Assembly (NCBI GenBank): GCA_947503625.1
Contig: CANNEK010000003.1
Coordinates: 372,001-436,000 of the forward strand
Direction: 5' to 3'
DNA from: an uncultured Kordiimonas sp.
GTDB lineage: Bacteria; Pseudomonadota; Alphaproteobacteria; Sphingomonadales; Kordiimonadaceae
DNA length: 64,000 nt
The notes beneath the pieces were generated by a model, which saw only the letters and a list, made by a program, of their open reading frames with translations, was not told the DNA's origin and ran no database searches. Shown here piece by piece: positions 33,224 to 40,101 of the stretch (position 1 is its first letter; each line of letters begins with the position of its first letter). A program made the position numbers and the translations under genes.

Positions 33224-34186
33224 ATGAGTGAAACCAAACATACGAAAATGCTGATAATTGGCTCCGGCCCGGCGGGATATACCGCTGCGATCTATGCCGC
33301 ACGCGCCAATGTCCAGCCCATGATCGTAACCGGCATGCAGGCGGGTGGTCAGCTAACCATCACAACTGATGTGGAAAACTACCCTGGTTTTGCAGACGCC
33401 GTGCAAGGCCCTGAACTGATGGAAGCCATGCGTCAGCAGGCAGAAAACGTCGGGACCGAGATTGTCTACGACCTCATCAATGAAGTTGACCTGAAAGCTG
33501 TTCCCAAGCGGGCAGTTGGCGATAGCGGTACAATATACACCGCTGATACCATCGTGATTGCCACCGGTGCGCAGGCGCGCTGGCTTGGGTTGCCATCTGA
33601 AGAAAAATTCAACGGGTACGGCGTCTCGGCATGCGCAACATGTGATGGGTTTTTCTATCGCGGTAAGGAAGTCATCGTTGTTGGCGGCGGAAACACAGCT
33701 GTCGAGGAAGCGCTGTATCTGTCGAACATCTGCTCGAAAGTAACACTGGTGCACCGCCGCGACGAACTGCGCGCAGAGAAGATTTTGCAGGACCGCCTGT
33801 TTGCATCAAAAAACATCGAAGTCAAATGGGACCACGTGCTTGAGGAAGTAGTCGGCACGGAAGAACCGCTCGGCGTTACAGGCGTTAGGCTCAAGAGCGC
33901 ATTGACAGGCGACATCACCGAAATTGACGTGCACGGTGTTTTCATTGCCATTGGTCACACTCCGTCAACTCAGATCTTTGCCGGCCAGTTGCCCATGGAC
34001 GATGAAGGTTACATCATCAAACAGGCAGACAGCACACAAACAGATATCCCGGGCGTTTACGCTGCAGGCGACGTGACAGACAAGATATACCGCCAGGCCG
34101 TTACAGCCGCAGGCATGGGTTGCATGGCGGCGCTCGAAGCAGAGAAGTACCTTGCTGGCATGGAGCATGCCCAGGCAGCCGAGTAA
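33224..34186 (+). CDS. trxB: Thioredoxin reductase
   Basis: A 320-aa FAD/NADPH-dependent reductase of thioredoxin. FAD-binding [16 protein letters not shown] lies at the N-terminus, redox-active C137 and C140 in ACATCDG, the NADPH site [15 protein letters not shown] near residue 150, and the C-terminal FAD motif [14 protein letters not shown]. Length is typical. A strong terminator follows. A LysR regulator of the LsrB type lies about 1 kb downstream; trxB and lsrB are neighbours in rhizobia, so the pairing is probably conserved here with an inserted two-gene operon. It likely powers the peroxiredoxin at 20084 through thioredoxin. Confidence 0.97.
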
Positions 34187-34206
34187 ACAGTCAAGGAACC
34201 GACCCA

Positions 34207-34229
34207 AAAAGCGGCTTCGGGCCGCTTTT
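34207..34229. terminator. Terminator after trxB
   Basis: AAAAGCGGC / GCCGCTTTT with a TTCGG loop, a perfect 9-bp stem between convergent genes. Confidence 0.88.
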
Positions 34230-34247
34230 ATATCTCAAGTCAGAAAA

Positions 34248-34763
34248 CTAGCGCCCGCCAAGCAGGGTCCGGGCGCGTGCCTGCATTGCCTTGGTCCCTT
34301 CTTCCAGAGCAAACTTCATCGCTTTGTCTGAAGTTGCCCGCCATTTTTTCTGCCTACCTGCAATATCGTCAAGGGCCTGCAACGCGCACGTACGGGCAAT
34401 GCTTGATGTGCCCTGATAAAACACCTGTTCCAATCGCTGCACAAAAGTTTTTTGCTGGGCTGGGGGTAACTCCAAACCCGGCAATATTTTTGCGAGTTGC
34501 TCCAAAACTTCCCACTGGTCGCGCTTGAACGCTTTCAGTAGCTGGCTGGCAAAAGGCTTCAGTAAAGCCGGGTTCTTTTTAAAAACGGTCAGTAACGCAT
34601 GGGCGGCATGCGAAACAATTGTCGCGTTCGCAGAAGACAAGGCGTCCACCAGAACTTTCACGTGAGCCGGGTTTGCCAGAACCGCCCTGGCCACAGCTGT
34701 TGAATTGGCGACCGCTTTGCGTTCACCTTCCGCCAGCAACTCCAGAAGTTGACCAGACTGCAT
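34248..34763 (-). CDS. HEAT-like repeat protein (171 aa)
   Basis: An all-helical soluble protein built of about four HEAT-like repeats, for example HVKVLVDALSSANATIVSHA, LLKAFKRDQWEVLEQLAKIL and SSIARTCALQALDDIAG. No catalytic motif, signal peptide or membrane segment. Such folds usually bind proteins. The start is placed at MQSGQLLELL with a GGGGTAGG Shine-Dalgarno, only 4 nt after the stop of the upstream wHTH gene, so the two are translationally linked and likely act together. Function unknown. Confidence 0.75.
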   Translation of the reverse strand: MQSGQLLELLAEGERKAVANSTAVARAVLANPAHVKVLVDALSSANATIVSHAAHALLTVFKKNPALLKPFASQLLKAFKRDQWEVLEQLAKILPGLELPPAQQKTFVQRLEQVFYQGTSSIARTCALQALDDIAGRQKKWRATSDKAMKFALEEGTKAMQARARTLLGGR

Positions 34764-34767
34764 ACGC

Positions 34768-35064
34768 CTACCCCGCAAATATATTAGCAACCGCCTGTTT
34801 GGCTTCTTCCCCCAGACCGGTGAGCAGGATCTTGTTGTCGCCGCTTGATTGTGGTTGCAAGCTTACCAGCCCTGCCGTCCGCAAGGGGGCCATATGCTGA
34901 AAAGTCTGCCTGTCAGACATGCCTATCGCAATAGAAATTTCTCCGACTGTCGGCTCATGATGGTCAGCAATGACTATAAAAGCGATCACCGCTTCCGCGT
35001 TCAAAGAAGGGTAGTTGTCGCGAAAGATACTGGTTGCCTGTTGAAGAATTTCTCTGTTGCTCAT
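34768..35064 (-). CDS. Small winged-helix (MarR-like) protein
   Basis: 98 aa. A single winged-helix DNA-binding domain is suggested by AVIAFIVIADHHEPTVGEIS, IGMSDRQTFQHMAPLRTAG and LVSLQPQSSGDNKILLTG, the last part being the wing. It lacks the long dimerisation helices of full MarR proteins. It is the first gene of a two-gene operon with the HEAT-repeat protein and is divergent from lsrB. It may autoregulate, with the HEAT protein as partner; that is inference. Confidence 0.72.
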   Translation of the reverse strand: MSNREILQQATSIFRDNYPSLNAEAVIAFIVIADHHEPTVGEISIAIGMSDRQTFQHMAPLRTAGLVSLQPQSSGDNKILLTGLGEEAKQAVANIFAG

Positions 35065-35200
35065 TACTCGTCCCCATAGTTCCGAACAGCTTAGTGTATA
35101 TTTGTAAACATATTGTTGCCATGAAGCTGGTATTGATCGTCATCCGACTTGCAGCAAATAACTTCTAGTGGGATAGTGCTGCCACTTGGGAGAGGGGCCG

Positions 35201-36094
35201 ATGGACTGGGACAGACTTAGAATTTTTCATACCGTTGCAGAAAGCGGGAGCTTTACAAGCGCAGGTGCGCAGCTAAACGTCAGCCAGTCAGCGGTCAGCC
35301 GACAGATACGTGCGCTTGAAGACAGTCTGAATGTATCTCTGTTCACCCGTCATGCCCGAGGTTTGGTGCTGACGCAGGAAGGACAGGAGCTTTTCGAAAC
35401 GGCTCGTGATGTTGTTCAGCGTATTGACGAAACCGAGCGCCGCCTGATGGAATCTCGCGAACGGCCATCAGGGCGGCTGCGCGTTACAACAATGGTGACC
35501 TTCGGTGCCGTTTGGCTCACGCCGCATCTGGAACAATTTGTTCTGGAGTATCCGGAAATTGACCTGAAAGTGATCCTCGACGACGAAGACCTCGACTTGT
35601 CTGCTGGCGCGGCCGATGTGGCGATCAGGTTGCATGAACCCCAGCAGGCTGATCTTATCCAGCGGCCTCTGGCAACTTTTCACAACCATATCTACGCAAG
35701 CCCGGAGTATCTCGCACGCAAAGGAACGCCTGTCACCACTGCAGACCTTGATATGCATGACCTGATCACTTTTGGCGTCAGCGCGGCGCCCGTGATCAAG
35801 GGCCTGAACTGGTTACTCGAAGTCGGCAAAGAAACCCACAAGCGGTCTCCTCGGCTGGAGGTTAACAACCTGTACGGAATTCTACATGCAGTGGAAGCAG
35901 GCATGGGGCTGGCTGTGCTACCCGACTATCTGGTGCACAATCGCCAAAAACTGGTAAGGGTTTTGCCGGATGTCGAAGGATTGCGCTTCAACAGCTATTT
36001 CTGCTATCCGCCCGAACTCAGAGGGTCGCTGCGTGTTGCGCTGTTCAGGGATTTCCTCATCCGCCAGATCAGGGCTGAGAGCAATATCCTTTAG
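35201..36094 (+). CDS. lsrB: LysR-family regulator, LsrB/VtlR type
   Basis: 297 aa. The N-terminus MDWDRLRIFHTVAESGSFTS is nearly the same as that of rhizobial LsrB/VtlR, and it has SQSAVSRQIRALEDSLNVSL as recognition helix and ADVAIRLHEPQQADLIQR in the ligand domain. In Sinorhizobium, Agrobacterium and Brucella these proteins control redox and envelope genes and, for VtlR, small regulatory RNAs. A trxB gene lies upstream, as in rhizobia. The start at 35201 has a GAGAGGGG Shine-Dalgarno. Its stop codon overlaps the stop of the convergent HEAT-cyclophilin gene. Confidence 0.88.
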   Translation: MDWDRLRIFHTVAESGSFTSAGAQLNVSQSAVSRQIRALEDSLNVSLFTRHARGLVLTQEGQELFETARDVVQRIDETERRLMESRERPSGRLRVTTMVTFGAVWLTPHLEQFVLEYPEIDLKVILDDEDLDLSAGAADVAIRLHEPQQADLIQRPLATFHNHIYASPEYLARKGTPVTTADLDMHDLITFGVSAAPVIKGLNWLLEVGKETHKRSPRLEVNNLYGILHAVEAGMGLAVLPDYLVHNRQKLVRVLPDVEGLRFNSYFCYPPELRGSLRVALFRDFLIRQIRAESNIL

Positions 36095-37800
36095 TCGCCG
36101 GAAACCTTTGCCTTGATAATCAGGTCCCCTTCCTGCAGCGAATAGGCAATTTCCAGTCCTTTGCTGACCCTGCCAAAAACCGTATAGCGGCCGTCAAGGT
36201 GGCGATTGTTTTCAAGGTTGATAAAAAACTGGCTGCTGCCGGTATCCGGCCCCGCTGTCGCCACACCAACTGTTCCCGGCTCGTGATGGGCCGCCCCCCA
36301 TTCTTCGCGAATGGTGCCAACATTATACTGGTCCATACTGTTTCGCTGGCCTGCCTGCGCCACAAACCCGGGGATAACCCTATGCCATAACATGCCATCA
36401 AGTGCCCCTGTGCGGGCCAGTTCTATGAAGTTGTGAGCAGCGTATGGGGCACCGCTGATCATTTCGATTTCAATCTCGCCGCGGCTGGTCTCTAACACCA
36501 GCCGTTTGCTTGTTGAGGCAAACGCCACATCGAAACTCGCCGTAGGGCGCACGAGACTAGCCTGACCGGACGAAGGGTCCAGCGCACTCTGGGCTTCTCT
36601 CACCCGTGGGCTTTCTTCTTTTGCGGCGACAAATTTGCGGAGATGCGCCTGTCCGGCGTCTGAACCAGACAACATGGAGATAGACCTGAAGGCCTTATAA
36701 AAACTACCACTCTGCAACCAGCCCGCCGCAGTATCAATTGCCTTGATGTCCTGCAGGCGCACCAACCCTTCCAGCGCAGTGACCGCAAGCCAGGGGTTTT
36801 CGTCGTCAACGAAGTTCCAAAGTCGTTCCCGAATAATGGCATCGGCGTCAGGTCGTGCGGCAAGTGCCGACAGTGCCAGATGCTTGAATTCAACTGAGGC
36901 GTTGATCAATAACGCCATCAAATACATTCGGCTGTCGGTGTCAGACAGACCCGCCATCGCCCGCACAGCGGCGACGGCCACACGTCGTTCGCGCAAATGC
37001 CTGCTGTTGTGTCCCGCCGCGATTGCCATCAGACTTGGCGCACCGGCCTCAAATTGAGACAGTGTTTTGATCAGAGGATATCGTTGTTCGACAGGCACAT
37101 CACCGGCCAACCTGCCAAGAATACGTTTCGTGTCAAACACAGCGTCAAGCCCTTGAAGGCGAGACAAAAGATAAGCTGCATCAAAACCCTGGGGCCCTTG
37201 TTCACCAGAAAGCTCCAACAGCGTATCGAAATCCAGATAAGGTAGGTCTGCAGGTTCGAGAGCGGCATATGTAACGCTCTGCATGAAACCATAAAGCGCA
37301 GCTGCCTTGATCTCGGGAGCGTCGGTTGACGCCAGGACTTCTTTCACCAATGCGCCATGCAGAGCGCGGTTCTCTTCGGTTGAGATGAACGCCAAAGCAC
37401 GAAGAGCCGCAGCTTTGACCGGCTCTGAATCGGTTTTTGCCACGATACCTGCGACCATCTGAAAGGACTGTATGTCCCGACAGTTCGCAAGGCCCTCAAG
37501 GGTGGCCACCAGACCATCATTTTTTTCCGTAGTCAGATAAGGGCGAATCGCATCACATGCCTGTTGCCCCATCAGGCCCCAGAGACGAAGCGCATCATGA
37601 TTACCGGCATCAACCGCAGTTTCAAGGAGTTGGCTGTTCACAGCACGGCGATCAATCGTTTCGCTGACAACGGCGCGGAAATCCGTTTCATCACCATAGG
37701 CGGGCCCGCATACCATCGGCCCAAAAACAAGAAATAAGTATTTTAAAATAATAGGTTGCGTGAATTTTTGCAGCATCAGGTTTCCATAACTGTTGTCCAT
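36091..37800 (-). CDS. HEAT-repeat/cyclophilin-type peptidyl-prolyl isomerase fusion
   Basis: 569 aa. An N-terminal signal peptide or anchor (KYLFLVFGPMVCGPAYGD) predicts periplasmic location. Residues about 40-400 are tandem HEAT-like helical repeats (SEPVKAAALRALAFISTEEN, RRVAVAAVRAMAGLSDTDS). Residues about 415-569 form a cyclophilin: ETSRGEIEIEMI, LWHRVIPGFVAQAGQ, GSSQFFINLENNRHLDGRYT and VFGRVSKGLEIA, keeping the catalytic Arg, Phe and Gln. The repeats may dock protein clients. The start is set at ATG 37800 with an AGGAAA Shine-Dalgarno; ATG 37776 is an alternative. Confidence 0.85.
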   Translation of the reverse strand: MDNSYGNLMLQKFTQPIILKYLFLVFGPMVCGPAYGDETDFRAVVSETIDRRAVNSQLLETAVDAGNHDALRLWGLMGQQACDAIRPYLTTEKNDGLVATLEGLANCRDIQSFQMVAGIVAKTDSEPVKAAALRALAFISTEENRALHGALVKEVLASTDAPEIKAAALYGFMQSVTYAALEPADLPYLDFDTLLELSGEQGPQGFDAAYLLSRLQGLDAVFDTKRILGRLAGDVPVEQRYPLIKTLSQFEAGAPSLMAIAAGHNSRHLRERRVAVAAVRAMAGLSDTDSRMYLMALLINASVEFKHLALSALAARPDADAIIRERLWNFVDDENPWLAVTALEGLVRLQDIKAIDTAAGWLQSGSFYKAFRSISMLSGSDAGQAHLRKFVAAKEESPRVREAQSALDPSSGQASLVRPTASFDVAFASTSKRLVLETSRGEIEIEMISGAPYAAHNFIELARTGALDGMLWHRVIPGFVAQAGQRNSMDQYNVGTIREEWGAAHHEPGTVGVATAGPDTGSSQFFINLENNRHLDGRYTVFGRVSKGLEIAYSLQEGDLIIKAKVSGD

Positions 37801-37989
37801 CAACCACTTTCCTGTGTCATAACAACGGCGTAGTCGATATTTTGAGCCATGCATTTTTCGCATAGCTGGTTTCTAATTTGAACGGGTTCTCTCGCACGCC
37901 CAATCAACCTATATACACGTCATCGCCAACGGGCAATCGCAACAGCGACAACCTGATGGTAAAGAGATTTGACGGTTTTCCGTCATAAT

Positions 37990-38117
37990 GGCCGGCTCTG
38001 GTAACTCTCCCCCCCTCCCCCACTTCACCAGAGTCGGCCAATTAAATCTCCGGGACGTAATCCGGGATTTGAACTCCCCTAGAGTATCTGGCTCCACTTT
38101 TGTGGGGCCTTTTTTTT
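37990..38117 (+). ncRNA. Candidate structured RNA with a C-rich loop (sRNA or leader attenuator)
   Basis: No protein gene covers 37801-38205. Inside it a 13-bp stem (37990-38002 with 38027-38039, one G-U pair) closes a 24-nt loop containing CTCTCCCCCCCTCCCCC. A small GGGA/TCCC hairpin with loop TTTGAAC follows at 38064-38078, then a strong terminator with eight T residues at 38090-38117. The 5' end is not defined; a weak promoter (TTCTCT at 37887, TATATA at 37910) would give a transcript of about 195 nt. Loops of this sort pair with Shine-Dalgarno sequences in alphaproteobacterial sRNAs. It could instead be an attenuator for the DUF885 gene 88 nt downstream. Confidence 0.6.
38090..38117 (+). 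terminator. Strong Rho-independent terminator upstream of the DUF885 gene
   Basis: GGCTCCAC / GTGGGGCC (one T-G pair), TTTT loop, then eight consecutive T residues. There is no + strand protein gene immediately upstream, so it must end a non-coding transcript or a leader. Confidence 0.88.
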
Positions 38118-38205
38118 GTCTGAACCAAGGTTTAGTCCACCTTGACTCTTTCATACTTTCGCGCAACGGTTCGCGCCTCTTCCAAACGCAATTCCGAGAC
38201 CGACA

Positions 38206-40101
38206 ATGACCCGTTTTCATACCAAACCCAATTCCCTGCGCCAACTGATGTTGGCACTTGCGGCCTCAACAGCACTGGTTGCCTGTGAGCCAGCCAGCAA
38301 TACGTCAACCGATAGCGCGACACAGTCAGCCGTAACTGCTCAGGAAATCGAGGCAGAAAGCGCGCGTCTCAACGCGTGGTTTGAGGATCAATTTGAGACC
38401 GAGGTCGGATTTAGCCCCATTCAGCAGACGTTTCTGGGCCGCAAAACAGATTACGACAAAATCGATGACCTGTCTGCTGCTGCACAAGCGGAACAGCTGG
38501 ATTGGAAGCGCAGGAGTGTCGCTAAAATGAAAGCGAACTTCGACTATGGAAAATTGTCGGAAGATGCGAAAATTTCATATGATATCTGGTCCTATCAACT
38601 GGCGGCAGCAGAGGCGGCAGATACATACCGAACAAACGCGTACACTTTCGACCAGATGAGCGCAGTGCATGGTTTCTTCCCACAACTGTTGATCGCATTC
38701 CACAAAGTTGAAACTGCTGCAGACATGGAAGCCTATGTTTCCCGTATTCGCGCAACAGGAACAGCGCTGGAGCAACTCATTGCCCTGTCAAAGGAAAGCG
38801 CTGCGCTTGGTGTTCGCCCACCGAGGTTCGCATATGAAAGCGTAATCGACAGTTCAAAACAGATCATCACCGGTGCGCCTTTCACAGACGGCGAGGACAG
38901 TTCCATCTGGGCTGACGCCCAAGCCAAGGTTAAATCTTTGCTGGATGCAGAAGCCATTGATCAGGCAAAAGCCGATGAACTGACCACCACTGCCCGGGAG
39001 GCATTGGTTTCTGTTTGGCAACCGGCATATCAAGCCCTTATCGCATGGCAGGAAGCAGATATGGCAAACGCTGAGGTTGGCGCCGGTGTCAGCAGCCTGC
39101 CTAACGGCGAAGCATACTATAACGAGCGACTGGCAAACCAAACCACTACGAACCTGACTGCCGATGAAATCCATCAGATCGGCCTTGCTGAGGTGGCGCG
39201 CATCCGGTCGGAGATGGAAGCCATCAAGGACAGTGTCGGATTTGAAGGCGATCTGGTTTCTTTTTTTACAGCCCTCAGGGACAGCAAAGACGATCGCCGC
39301 CATTATTACCCTGATACAGACGAAGGACGCCAAGGCTACATTGATGATGCAACAGCTGCGATTGAGAACATCAAATCGAAGCTGCCCGATTATTTTGGTA
39401 TCCTGCCCAAAGCAGACCTTGAGGTGCGCCGGGTTGAACCTTTCCGGGAACAACCGGGTGCTGCACAGCATTACTTCCCGGGAACACCCGACGGCTCTCG
39501 CCCGGGTATTTACTATGCGCATCTGGCAGACATGACGGCAATGCCCAAAGGCGAGCTTGAGGTGATTGCCTACCACGAAGGCTTGCCGGGGCACCATATG
39601 CAGATAGCCATTCAGCAAGAACTGGAAAGCGTACCAACCTTCCGCACCCAGGCGAACTTCAACGCATACTCCGAGGGCTGGGGGCTCTATTCAGAGGTTC
39701 TCGCCAAGGAAATGGATGGAACCTACACAGACCCCTATTCCGATTTTGGACGCCTTGGCTCCGAAATGTGGCGGGCGATCCGTTTGGTTCTGGATACGGG
39801 CCTGCATTCCAAAGGCTGGACTGAACAGCAGGCTATTGACTATTTCCTTGCAAACTCTGCAATCACCGAAGCGCAGGCCCGCTCCGAAACACGGCGCTAT
39901 ATGGTCCTGCCAGGACAAGCCACAAGCTACAAAATCGGCATGTTGAAAATTCAGGAGCTGCGCCGAAAAGCCGAAAACACCCTTGGAGACAAGTTCGATA
40001 TAAAAGGTTTCCATGATACCGTTCTGGGCGGCGGTGCTGTTCCCTTGAATGTTCTGGAACGTATGATTGATCAATGGATCAACCGCGTACAGGCAGGCTA
40101 G
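38206..40101 (+). CDS. DUF885-family lipoprotein, putative metallopeptidase
   Basis: 631 aa. The signal peptide ends in a lipobox (ALVAC, Cys near residue 27), so the protein is a lipoprotein. Residues about 50-620 match DUF885 proteins, which resemble thermolysin-like or M32-like zinc peptidases: VIAYHEGLPGHHMQIAIQQE contains HEGxPGH, and FNAYSEGWGLYSE supplies the downstream Glu. The C-terminal MVLPGQATSYKIGMLKIQEL is also typical. It probably cleaves peptides outside the cytoplasm. The gene lies behind a strong terminator and candidate RNA. Confidence 0.9.
   Translation: MTRFHTKPNSLRQLMLALAASTALVACEPASNTSTDSATQSAVTAQEIEAESARLNAWFEDQFETEVGFSPIQQTFLGRKTDYDKIDDLSAAAQAEQLDWKRRSVAKMKANFDYGKLSEDAKISYDIWSYQLAAAEAADTYRTNAYTFDQMSAVHGFFPQLLIAFHKVETAADMEAYVSRIRATGTALEQLIALSKESAALGVRPPRFAYESVIDSSKQIITGAPFTDGEDSSIWADAQAKVKSLLDAEAIDQAKADELTTTAREALVSVWQPAYQALIAWQEADMANAEVGAGVSSLPNGEAYYNERLANQTTTNLTADEIHQIGLAEVARIRSEMEAIKDSVGFEGDLVSFFTALRDSKDDRRHYYPDTDEGRQGYIDDATAAIENIKSKLPDYFGILPKADLEVRRVEPFREQPGAAQHYFPGTPDGSRPGIYYAHLADMTAMPKGELEVIAYHEGLPGHHMQIAIQQELESVPTFRTQANFNAYSEGWGLYSEVLAKEMDGTYTDPYSDFGRLGSEMWRAIRLVLDTGLHSKGWTEQQAIDYFLANSAITEAQARSETRRYMVLPGQATSYKIGMLKIQELRRKAENTLGDKFDIKGFHDTVLGGGAVPLNVLERMIDQWINRVQAG

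Follow-up and report, generated by a model that had tools for sequence, protein, structure and literature searches.

A conserved candidate small RNA with a C-rich hairpin loop, probably controlled by LsrB, downstream of trxB-lsrB in Kordiimonadaceae

The window, by which we mean the whole 64,000-nucleotide stretch of Kordiimonas DNA analysed here, contains a thioredoxin reductase gene, a LysR-type regulator gene and, 2 kb downstream of the latter, a predicted small RNA (sRNA) gene that is apparently undescribed so far. The features of the locus are the following:

33224..34186, + strand: trxB, thioredoxin reductase (TIGR01292, 411.9 bits, cut-off 343.45)
35201..36094, + strand: lsrB/vtlR orthologue, the proposed activator (start at 35201 inferred, the ORF opening at 35186; match to PDB 9hh1)
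37845..37872, + strand: putative LsrB/VtlR box with the palindrome AGCCATGC-N7-GCATAGCT at 37845-37867, covering roughly -72 to -50 relative to the predicted start
37910..37915, + strand: predicted -10 element TATATA, with a start predicted near 37922 and a conserved spacing to the box
37922..38117, + strand: predicted sRNA of 196 nt (from promoter position, terminator and family conservation)
37925..37960, + strand: H1, 5' hairpin, variable between species (minimum-energy fold)
37970..37985, + strand: H2, hairpin TGACGG-TTTT-CCGTCA (97.6% of cells paired, double change in 1/6 pairs, three pairs never varying)
37990..38039, + strand: H3, hairpin with a 24-nt C-rich loop at 38003-38026 (99.5% of cells paired, double change in 8/13 pairs)
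38042..38072, + strand: H4, hairpin variable between species (minimum-energy fold)
38070..38089, + strand: C-rich linker GAACTCCCCTAG..., with a UCCC-type stretch read here in the sequence of most copies
38090..38117, + strand: intrinsic terminator, 8-bp stem and T8 (fold and terminator scan)

Hairpin H3 combines a 13-bp stem (37990-38002 with 38027-38039, including one G-U and extended by an extra U-A pair at 37989/38040) with a loop that contains CTCTCCCCCCCTCCCCC. The terminator stem (38090-38109) is followed by T8 (38110-38117), and terminator-like sites number 4 in the 601 nt scanned versus 0.5 +/- 0.8 in shuffled sequences. The 128-nt stretch from H3 to the terminator folds at -55.7 kcal/mol versus -34.95 +/- 3.46 for 200 dinucleotide shuffles, none of which was as low (z = -6.0). 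An earlier sequence-only reading had described this stem, the C-rich loop and the T8 terminator, and all three are present as it stated. That reading placed the element at 37990..38117, of which the 3' end at the terminator stands, while the 5' boundary is probably too short, the predicted start lying about 70 nt further upstream (~37922); two further 5' hairpins (H1 and H2) and the second C-rich stretch GAACTCCCCTAG before the terminator were not reported in it. A TTGACG at 37969 was considered as the -35 element of a transcript from about 37990 and rejected: the CATAAT after it follows at a distance of just 10 nt, and the palindrome changes in a coordinated way from species to species, so that it is read as an RNA hairpin and not as a promoter. 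In the copy of another genome (G011, locus L047) H1 has two further C-runs (ACTCCCCCCGATCTCCCCCCC), suggesting that C-rich loops may have arisen more than once.

Homologues were sought in 98 genomes, the source genome included. Beyond the source genome, five members of the genus hold near-full-length copies, and additional genomes hold copies of the 5' part. Eighteen loci were retrieved, among them the source locus; they were chosen by the pattern TCCCCC..TCCCCC near the match, and hence all 18 show such a loop. The alignment used for covariation (A2) holds 14 of these 18 core sequences, since G012, G023 and G025 have long H2 loops and G013 is a near-copy of G017; the G002 stretch was trimmed shorter than the others in alignment A1 and slightly so in A2. 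On A2, H2 and H3 together are paired in 98.9% of cells and show double-sided changes in 9/19 pairs. The covariation score of this structure was reached by none of 500 shuffles, and sliding the pairing by 1-3 columns reduced the paired cells to 28-53%. RNAalifold on all 18 sequences returned the identical two helices with double changes in 9/18 pairs, and predicted no other helix on that alignment. The sequence-only reading had named the absence of compensatory changes in the 13-bp stem as evidence against itself; such changes were found in 8 of the 13 pairs among the 14 sequences. Moreover, while the H3 stem changes between copies, a number of C columns in the loop stay invariant, which points to the loop as the functional surface.

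Both a 73-aa ORF on the + strand and a 111-aa ORF on the - strand cover the region in the mechanical ORF list of the window, and the region could accordingly be the gene of a small protein. We give this almost no credence: no reading frame was conserved among the relatives translated, the + frame has stops or lacks an ATG in most of them, the longest open frames switch strand and frame between genomes, and the loops vary in length by single bases. A coding region was therefore rejected. A DUF885 gene begins 88 nt after the terminator, with its ATG at 38206, and the sequence-only reading had offered attenuation of that gene as an alternative, with the RNA as a cis-acting leader. DUF885 adjoins the RNA in just 7/18 family loci, the RNA being kept in the other 11, and the position of the RNA tracks lsrB instead; attenuation is therefore left unsupported and very improbable. 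The other proposal of the same reading, an independent sRNA gene whose product has a CU-rich loop, gains support both from the covariation and from the persistence of the RNA where DUF885 does not adjoin it, and we are highly confident that a conserved stand-alone RNA is encoded here.

A covariance model of the two hairpins (R1) was searched against the family and the order at E <= 0.01 and against the class at E <= 0.001. It matches 26/29 Kordiimonadaceae genomes in 8/9 genera (best matches between 5.2e-17 and 9.7e-6). Across the order the matches amount to 38/296 genomes, i.e. the 26 Kordiimonadaceae plus 12 weak matches from a single other family (E 2e-4 to 6e-3), which were not counted; examination of four of the latter showed no box within 260 nt upstream. 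Across the class, under stricter filters, 1/385 genomes was matched, namely the source genome itself. Among the three Kordiimonadaceae without a match, G010 has its lsrB match cut (residues 2-237) where a 3748-base contig (L162) ends, G004 has lsrB roughly 2 kb from the beginning of its contig, and G022 also lacks an LsrB match at E 1e-60. A further locus (L150), which fits G004 by coordinates only, shows the box, the -10 element, the small hairpin and the beginning of the C-loop, at which point the contig breaks off. In two genomes of another family of the order (G134 and G142; loci L105 and L106), a hairpin with a C-rich loop was seen at about locus position 1501, right after what seems to be the end of a gene identified by eye as ahpC (peroxiredoxin); an LsrB box was not found at these two loci.

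The regulator gene next to the RNA encodes a LysR protein that matches PDB 9hh1 over residues 1-292 (E = 9e-87, 294 bits). This entry is LsrB of A. tumefaciens (PMC11975290), and the next LysR structure reaches 113 bits, making the Agrobacterium protein by far the nearest among solved LysR structures. The Agrobacterium regulator is reported to respond to redox conditions, and in the work on it C273 was the one cysteine whose single substitution increased peroxide sensitivity (PMC11975290). Its counterpart is invariant in 17 family proteins while C144 is not conserved, so that just one of the two cysteines shared by rhizobial LsrB proteins, C273, has a counterpart in Kordiimonadaceae. The neighbourhood is conserved as well. 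Named relatives (Kordiimonas and Kordiimonadaceae records) have trxB upstream of lsrB in 21/22 loci, the exception (L149) covering only 565 nt upstream, and in 25/26 genomes the sRNA follows lsrB on the same strand at a distance of 0.2 to 4.5 kb; the remaining genome, G024, has the two on separate contigs. For Agrobacterium the reported gene order is trxB, vtlR, abcR1, abcR2, with trxB directly upstream of vtlR (PMC7486931). The interval between trxB and lsrB in the window (34187-35200) is about 1 kb with minus-strand ORFs, and ranges from about 0.1 to 4.5 kb in the named relatives.

Upstream of the RNA, the putative box includes TGCA-N6-GCAT at 37850-37863 and GCAT-N3-TG-N3-T at 37860-37872, which correspond to -72 to -59 and -62 to -50, respectively, for a start at 37922. 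The published sites are GCAT-N3-TG-N3-T at -61 to -49 of abcR1 (PMC8844928; the pattern is given also in PMC7486931) and TGCA-N6-GCAT inside -72 to -60 of nfeR1 (PMC10746234). Judged by sequence only, the window box thus fits both LsrB/VtlR patterns and lies at most 1 nt from the published positions, an agreement that is not fully independent because the start at 37922 is itself predicted. ATGC-N7-GCAT is found upstream of 26/26 family copies, 8 of which lie outside both alignments and the model. From its first base to the base before the TATA-like hexamer the distance is 60 nt in 22/26 copies and 59 nt in 4/26 (G002, G023, G021 and G028); the hexamer of G024, TATCTA, is a poor TATA-like match. 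No sigma-70 consensus promoter was detected by a consensus scan of 37700-38300, and the -35 region is GGGTTTTC-like, unlike the CTTGAC published for abcR1. The sequence ATGCNNNNNNNGCATRGCTG has one exact match in the genome, at the sRNA promoter. With up to one mismatch, the extended box pattern gives 21 genome rows, some palindromes being counted on both strands, versus 5 for the reversed control, and the pattern alone is consequently not decisive.

On the other strand, the window has a divergent gene for a cyclophilin-type isomerase with HEAT repeats (36091-37863). Its ORF, as listed, overlaps the box at the start; this gene too could be acted on by the box, or its real start lies further in. 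A one-mismatch box also precedes a gene for an 82-aa protein outside the window (G000:C3:56358-56756; L064/L065, L136), at 60 nt from a TATATA. The product has no Pfam or NCBIfam match. This gene occurs in 7/29 family genomes with an LsrB-type box in 7/7, and the distance from box to TATA-like element is 60 nt in six and 59 nt in one, one element being TACATA. For comparison, VtlR of Agrobacterium is reported to bind the promoters of abcR1, of a small-protein gene and of vrsA (PMC7486931).

The sequence-only reading had also suggested control by a VtlR/LsrB-type regulator, a hunch borne out at the sequence level by the box in 26/26 copies and by the nearness of the window LysR to Agrobacterium LsrB; control of the RNA by LsrB is, we consider, likely. 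LsrB/VtlR would bind the palindromic box at about -72 to -50 and activate the promoter, as the box, its spacing and the synteny suggest. The transcript would then fold into the 5' hairpin, the TGACGG hairpin, the C-loop stem, the variable hairpin, the C-rich linker and the U8 terminator; two of these hairpins (H2 and H3) are backed by covariation and the remaining fold is predicted. The exposed UCCC and CCCUCCCCC stretches may pair, probably with the help of Hfq, to purine-rich Shine-Dalgarno regions and repress the mRNAs, a step modelled on the AbcR, NfeR1 and aR8 sRNAs. An Hfq gene is present (PF17209, 112.1 bits, cut-off 27), and AbcR and NfeR1 are reported to occupy Shine-Dalgarno sites (PMC8844928), as the loop and linker may do here. 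Taken as a whole, the best explanation appears to be an LsrB-activated, probably Hfq-assisted, trans-acting sRNA that blocks Shine-Dalgarno regions (probability about 0.7). Within it, repression by anti-Shine-Dalgarno pairing is, by analogy, somewhat favoured as the main action. The extended complement of the loop before a start codon (GTGGGGGAG-N(2-9)-ATG) was not enriched, with 1 genome site versus 2 for the control, so that pairing would use short seeds.

The lack of enrichment of the target pattern at starts in the source genome would also suit an LsrB-controlled RNA of another kind, in which the C-rich loop would bind G-rich segments at a distance from the ribosome-binding site and chiefly stabilise or activate mRNAs. 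PmaR of Agrobacterium is reported as a spoon-like RNA whose long stem carries a single-stranded, C-rich loop and whose effects are mostly positive (PMC6234868), indicating that a C-rich loop is able to act positively. However, the other C-rich stretch, the linker preceding the terminator, is similar to the anti-Shine-Dalgarno motif reported for aR8 (UUUCCUCCCU, PMC12559287), and AbcR, the positional counterpart, represses; we therefore regard a mainly positive action as unlikely. It is less probable still that the RNA is a sponge or decoy, for instance for G-rich RNAs or for a protein that binds C-rich RNA, and regulates no mRNA directly. The G/A-rich sRNA CrfA of Caulobacter is reported to pair with the CCUCCC motif of the Sis sRNAs (PMC12559287), so that such motifs are able to join sRNA-sRNA pairing, but no partner was identified for the Kordiimonas RNA.

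Returning to the proposed LsrB-activated repressor, its closest functional counterparts seem to be the rhizobial sRNAs. AbcR1/AbcR2 (ar15) share with it a gene downstream of trxB-lsrB/vtlR, an LsrB-type box upstream, a terminator, and C-rich motifs both in a hairpin (CUCCCA in AbcR) and between hairpins (GUUCCC in AbcR), according to the published descriptions (PMC7486931, PMC8844928, PMC5461406). They differ in length, being reported as 114-121 nt in S. meliloti versus about 195 nt with a 24-nt C-rich loop and a 13-bp stem in Kordiimonas. NfeR1 (ar14), reported as 115 nt in S. meliloti, has several anti-Shine-Dalgarno motifs and shares the TGCA-N6-GCAT site and activation by LsrB, the latter being proposed in Kordiimonas (PMC10746234, PMC8844928). 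MmgR/suhB/SisA-D (aR8, RF00519) have a comparable CUCCC stretch, single-stranded and flanked by a weak hairpin and the terminator (PMC12559287), but score below threshold and have no counterpart of the C-loop hairpin. PmaR has the long stem and the C-rich single-stranded loop, and in its published account is described only from Agrobacterium and one Rhizobium strain (PMC6234868).

None of the Rfam families searched claims the RNA. Rfam gave no match at its cut-offs within the window; relaxing the thresholds brings out a likeness of the 3' half to SorY (26 bits, cut-off 111) and to suhB/MmgR (24.4 bits, cut-off 41). On 20 relative loci Rfam returned 6 sub-threshold rows, with suhB listed twice, at 28.5 bits on the other strand and at 24.4 bits for the window's own copy. 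The ar15 model (RF02345) has no match at the locus, its best two in the genome lying elsewhere (14 and 13.8 bits, cut-off 40), and ar14 (RF02344) has four genome matches, all of them away from the locus (the highest at 21.9 bits, cut-off 58.8); neither search had a positive control, as 0/14 control genomes passed the cut-off in each. Fourteen lsrB loci of other Alphaproteobacteria likewise gave no Rfam match. Hairpin loops with runs of C are known from the 6C RNA of Actinobacteria; this is an analogy only, that RNA being actinobacterial and the Kordiimonas RNA having no Rfam match. Because the RNA has the place of AbcR and its kind of box but no Rfam model match, it is best read as an sRNA family of its own that may work in the mode of AbcR and NfeR1. 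With it, a strongly covarying family that has no Rfam match joins the known sRNAs, and a lineage outside the rhizobia seems likewise to run the LsrB/VtlR-sRNA circuit that published work describes in Sinorhizobium, Agrobacterium and Brucella.

Beyond the Kordiimonadaceae, 41 lsrB-like loci with 46-60% identity were surveyed (L164-L205 minus L202; L206-L208 were excluded as weak LysR matches). ATGC-N7-GCAT occurs 860-1200 nt after the lsrB start in 16/41 of them, versus one match in four control windows per locus, some of which were shortened by contig ends; L203 is counted as a miss in the 16/41 though its box is present, its incomplete lsrB shifting the window. A module like ACGTCTCCCAGACGT-GAAGCCTCCCTGTTAGACT precedes the terminator in 13/17 outside loci inspected. 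A set of 11/13 modules (A4) leaves out the near-copies L176 and L198. A sequence-only model of the 3' module of these lsrB-adjacent RNAs (R2) gave weak matches only, the best at the window copy (E = 0.04), and among 43 outside loci R1 matched L164 at E = 0.026, with no further match under 0.5. A resemblance of the outside RNAs to SorX was set aside as sub-threshold (36.4-43.5 bits, cut-off 46.6). Sequence models thus do not firmly join the family RNA to the outside RNAs, and common descent is inferred from position, box and style. It is a tentative idea that trxB-lsrB with an adjacent LsrB-driven C-rich sRNA forms an ancestral redox-to-translation module of Alphaproteobacteria, in which regulator, box and spacing stayed near-fixed while the RNA was remodelled until it was hardly recognisable, into AbcR in rhizobia, a giant C-loop RNA in Kordiimonadaceae and other forms elsewhere. 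ATGC-N7-GCAT at 59-60 nt from the -10 element provides a concrete rule to find the RNA partner of LsrB elsewhere. Locus L164, from a MAG with 60% LsrB identity, has a one-mismatch box, an equally spaced TATA-like element, a C-loop hairpin and the linker AACCTCCCTTTGTGTGGACAC, and on its sequence this RNA is an apparent intermediate form.
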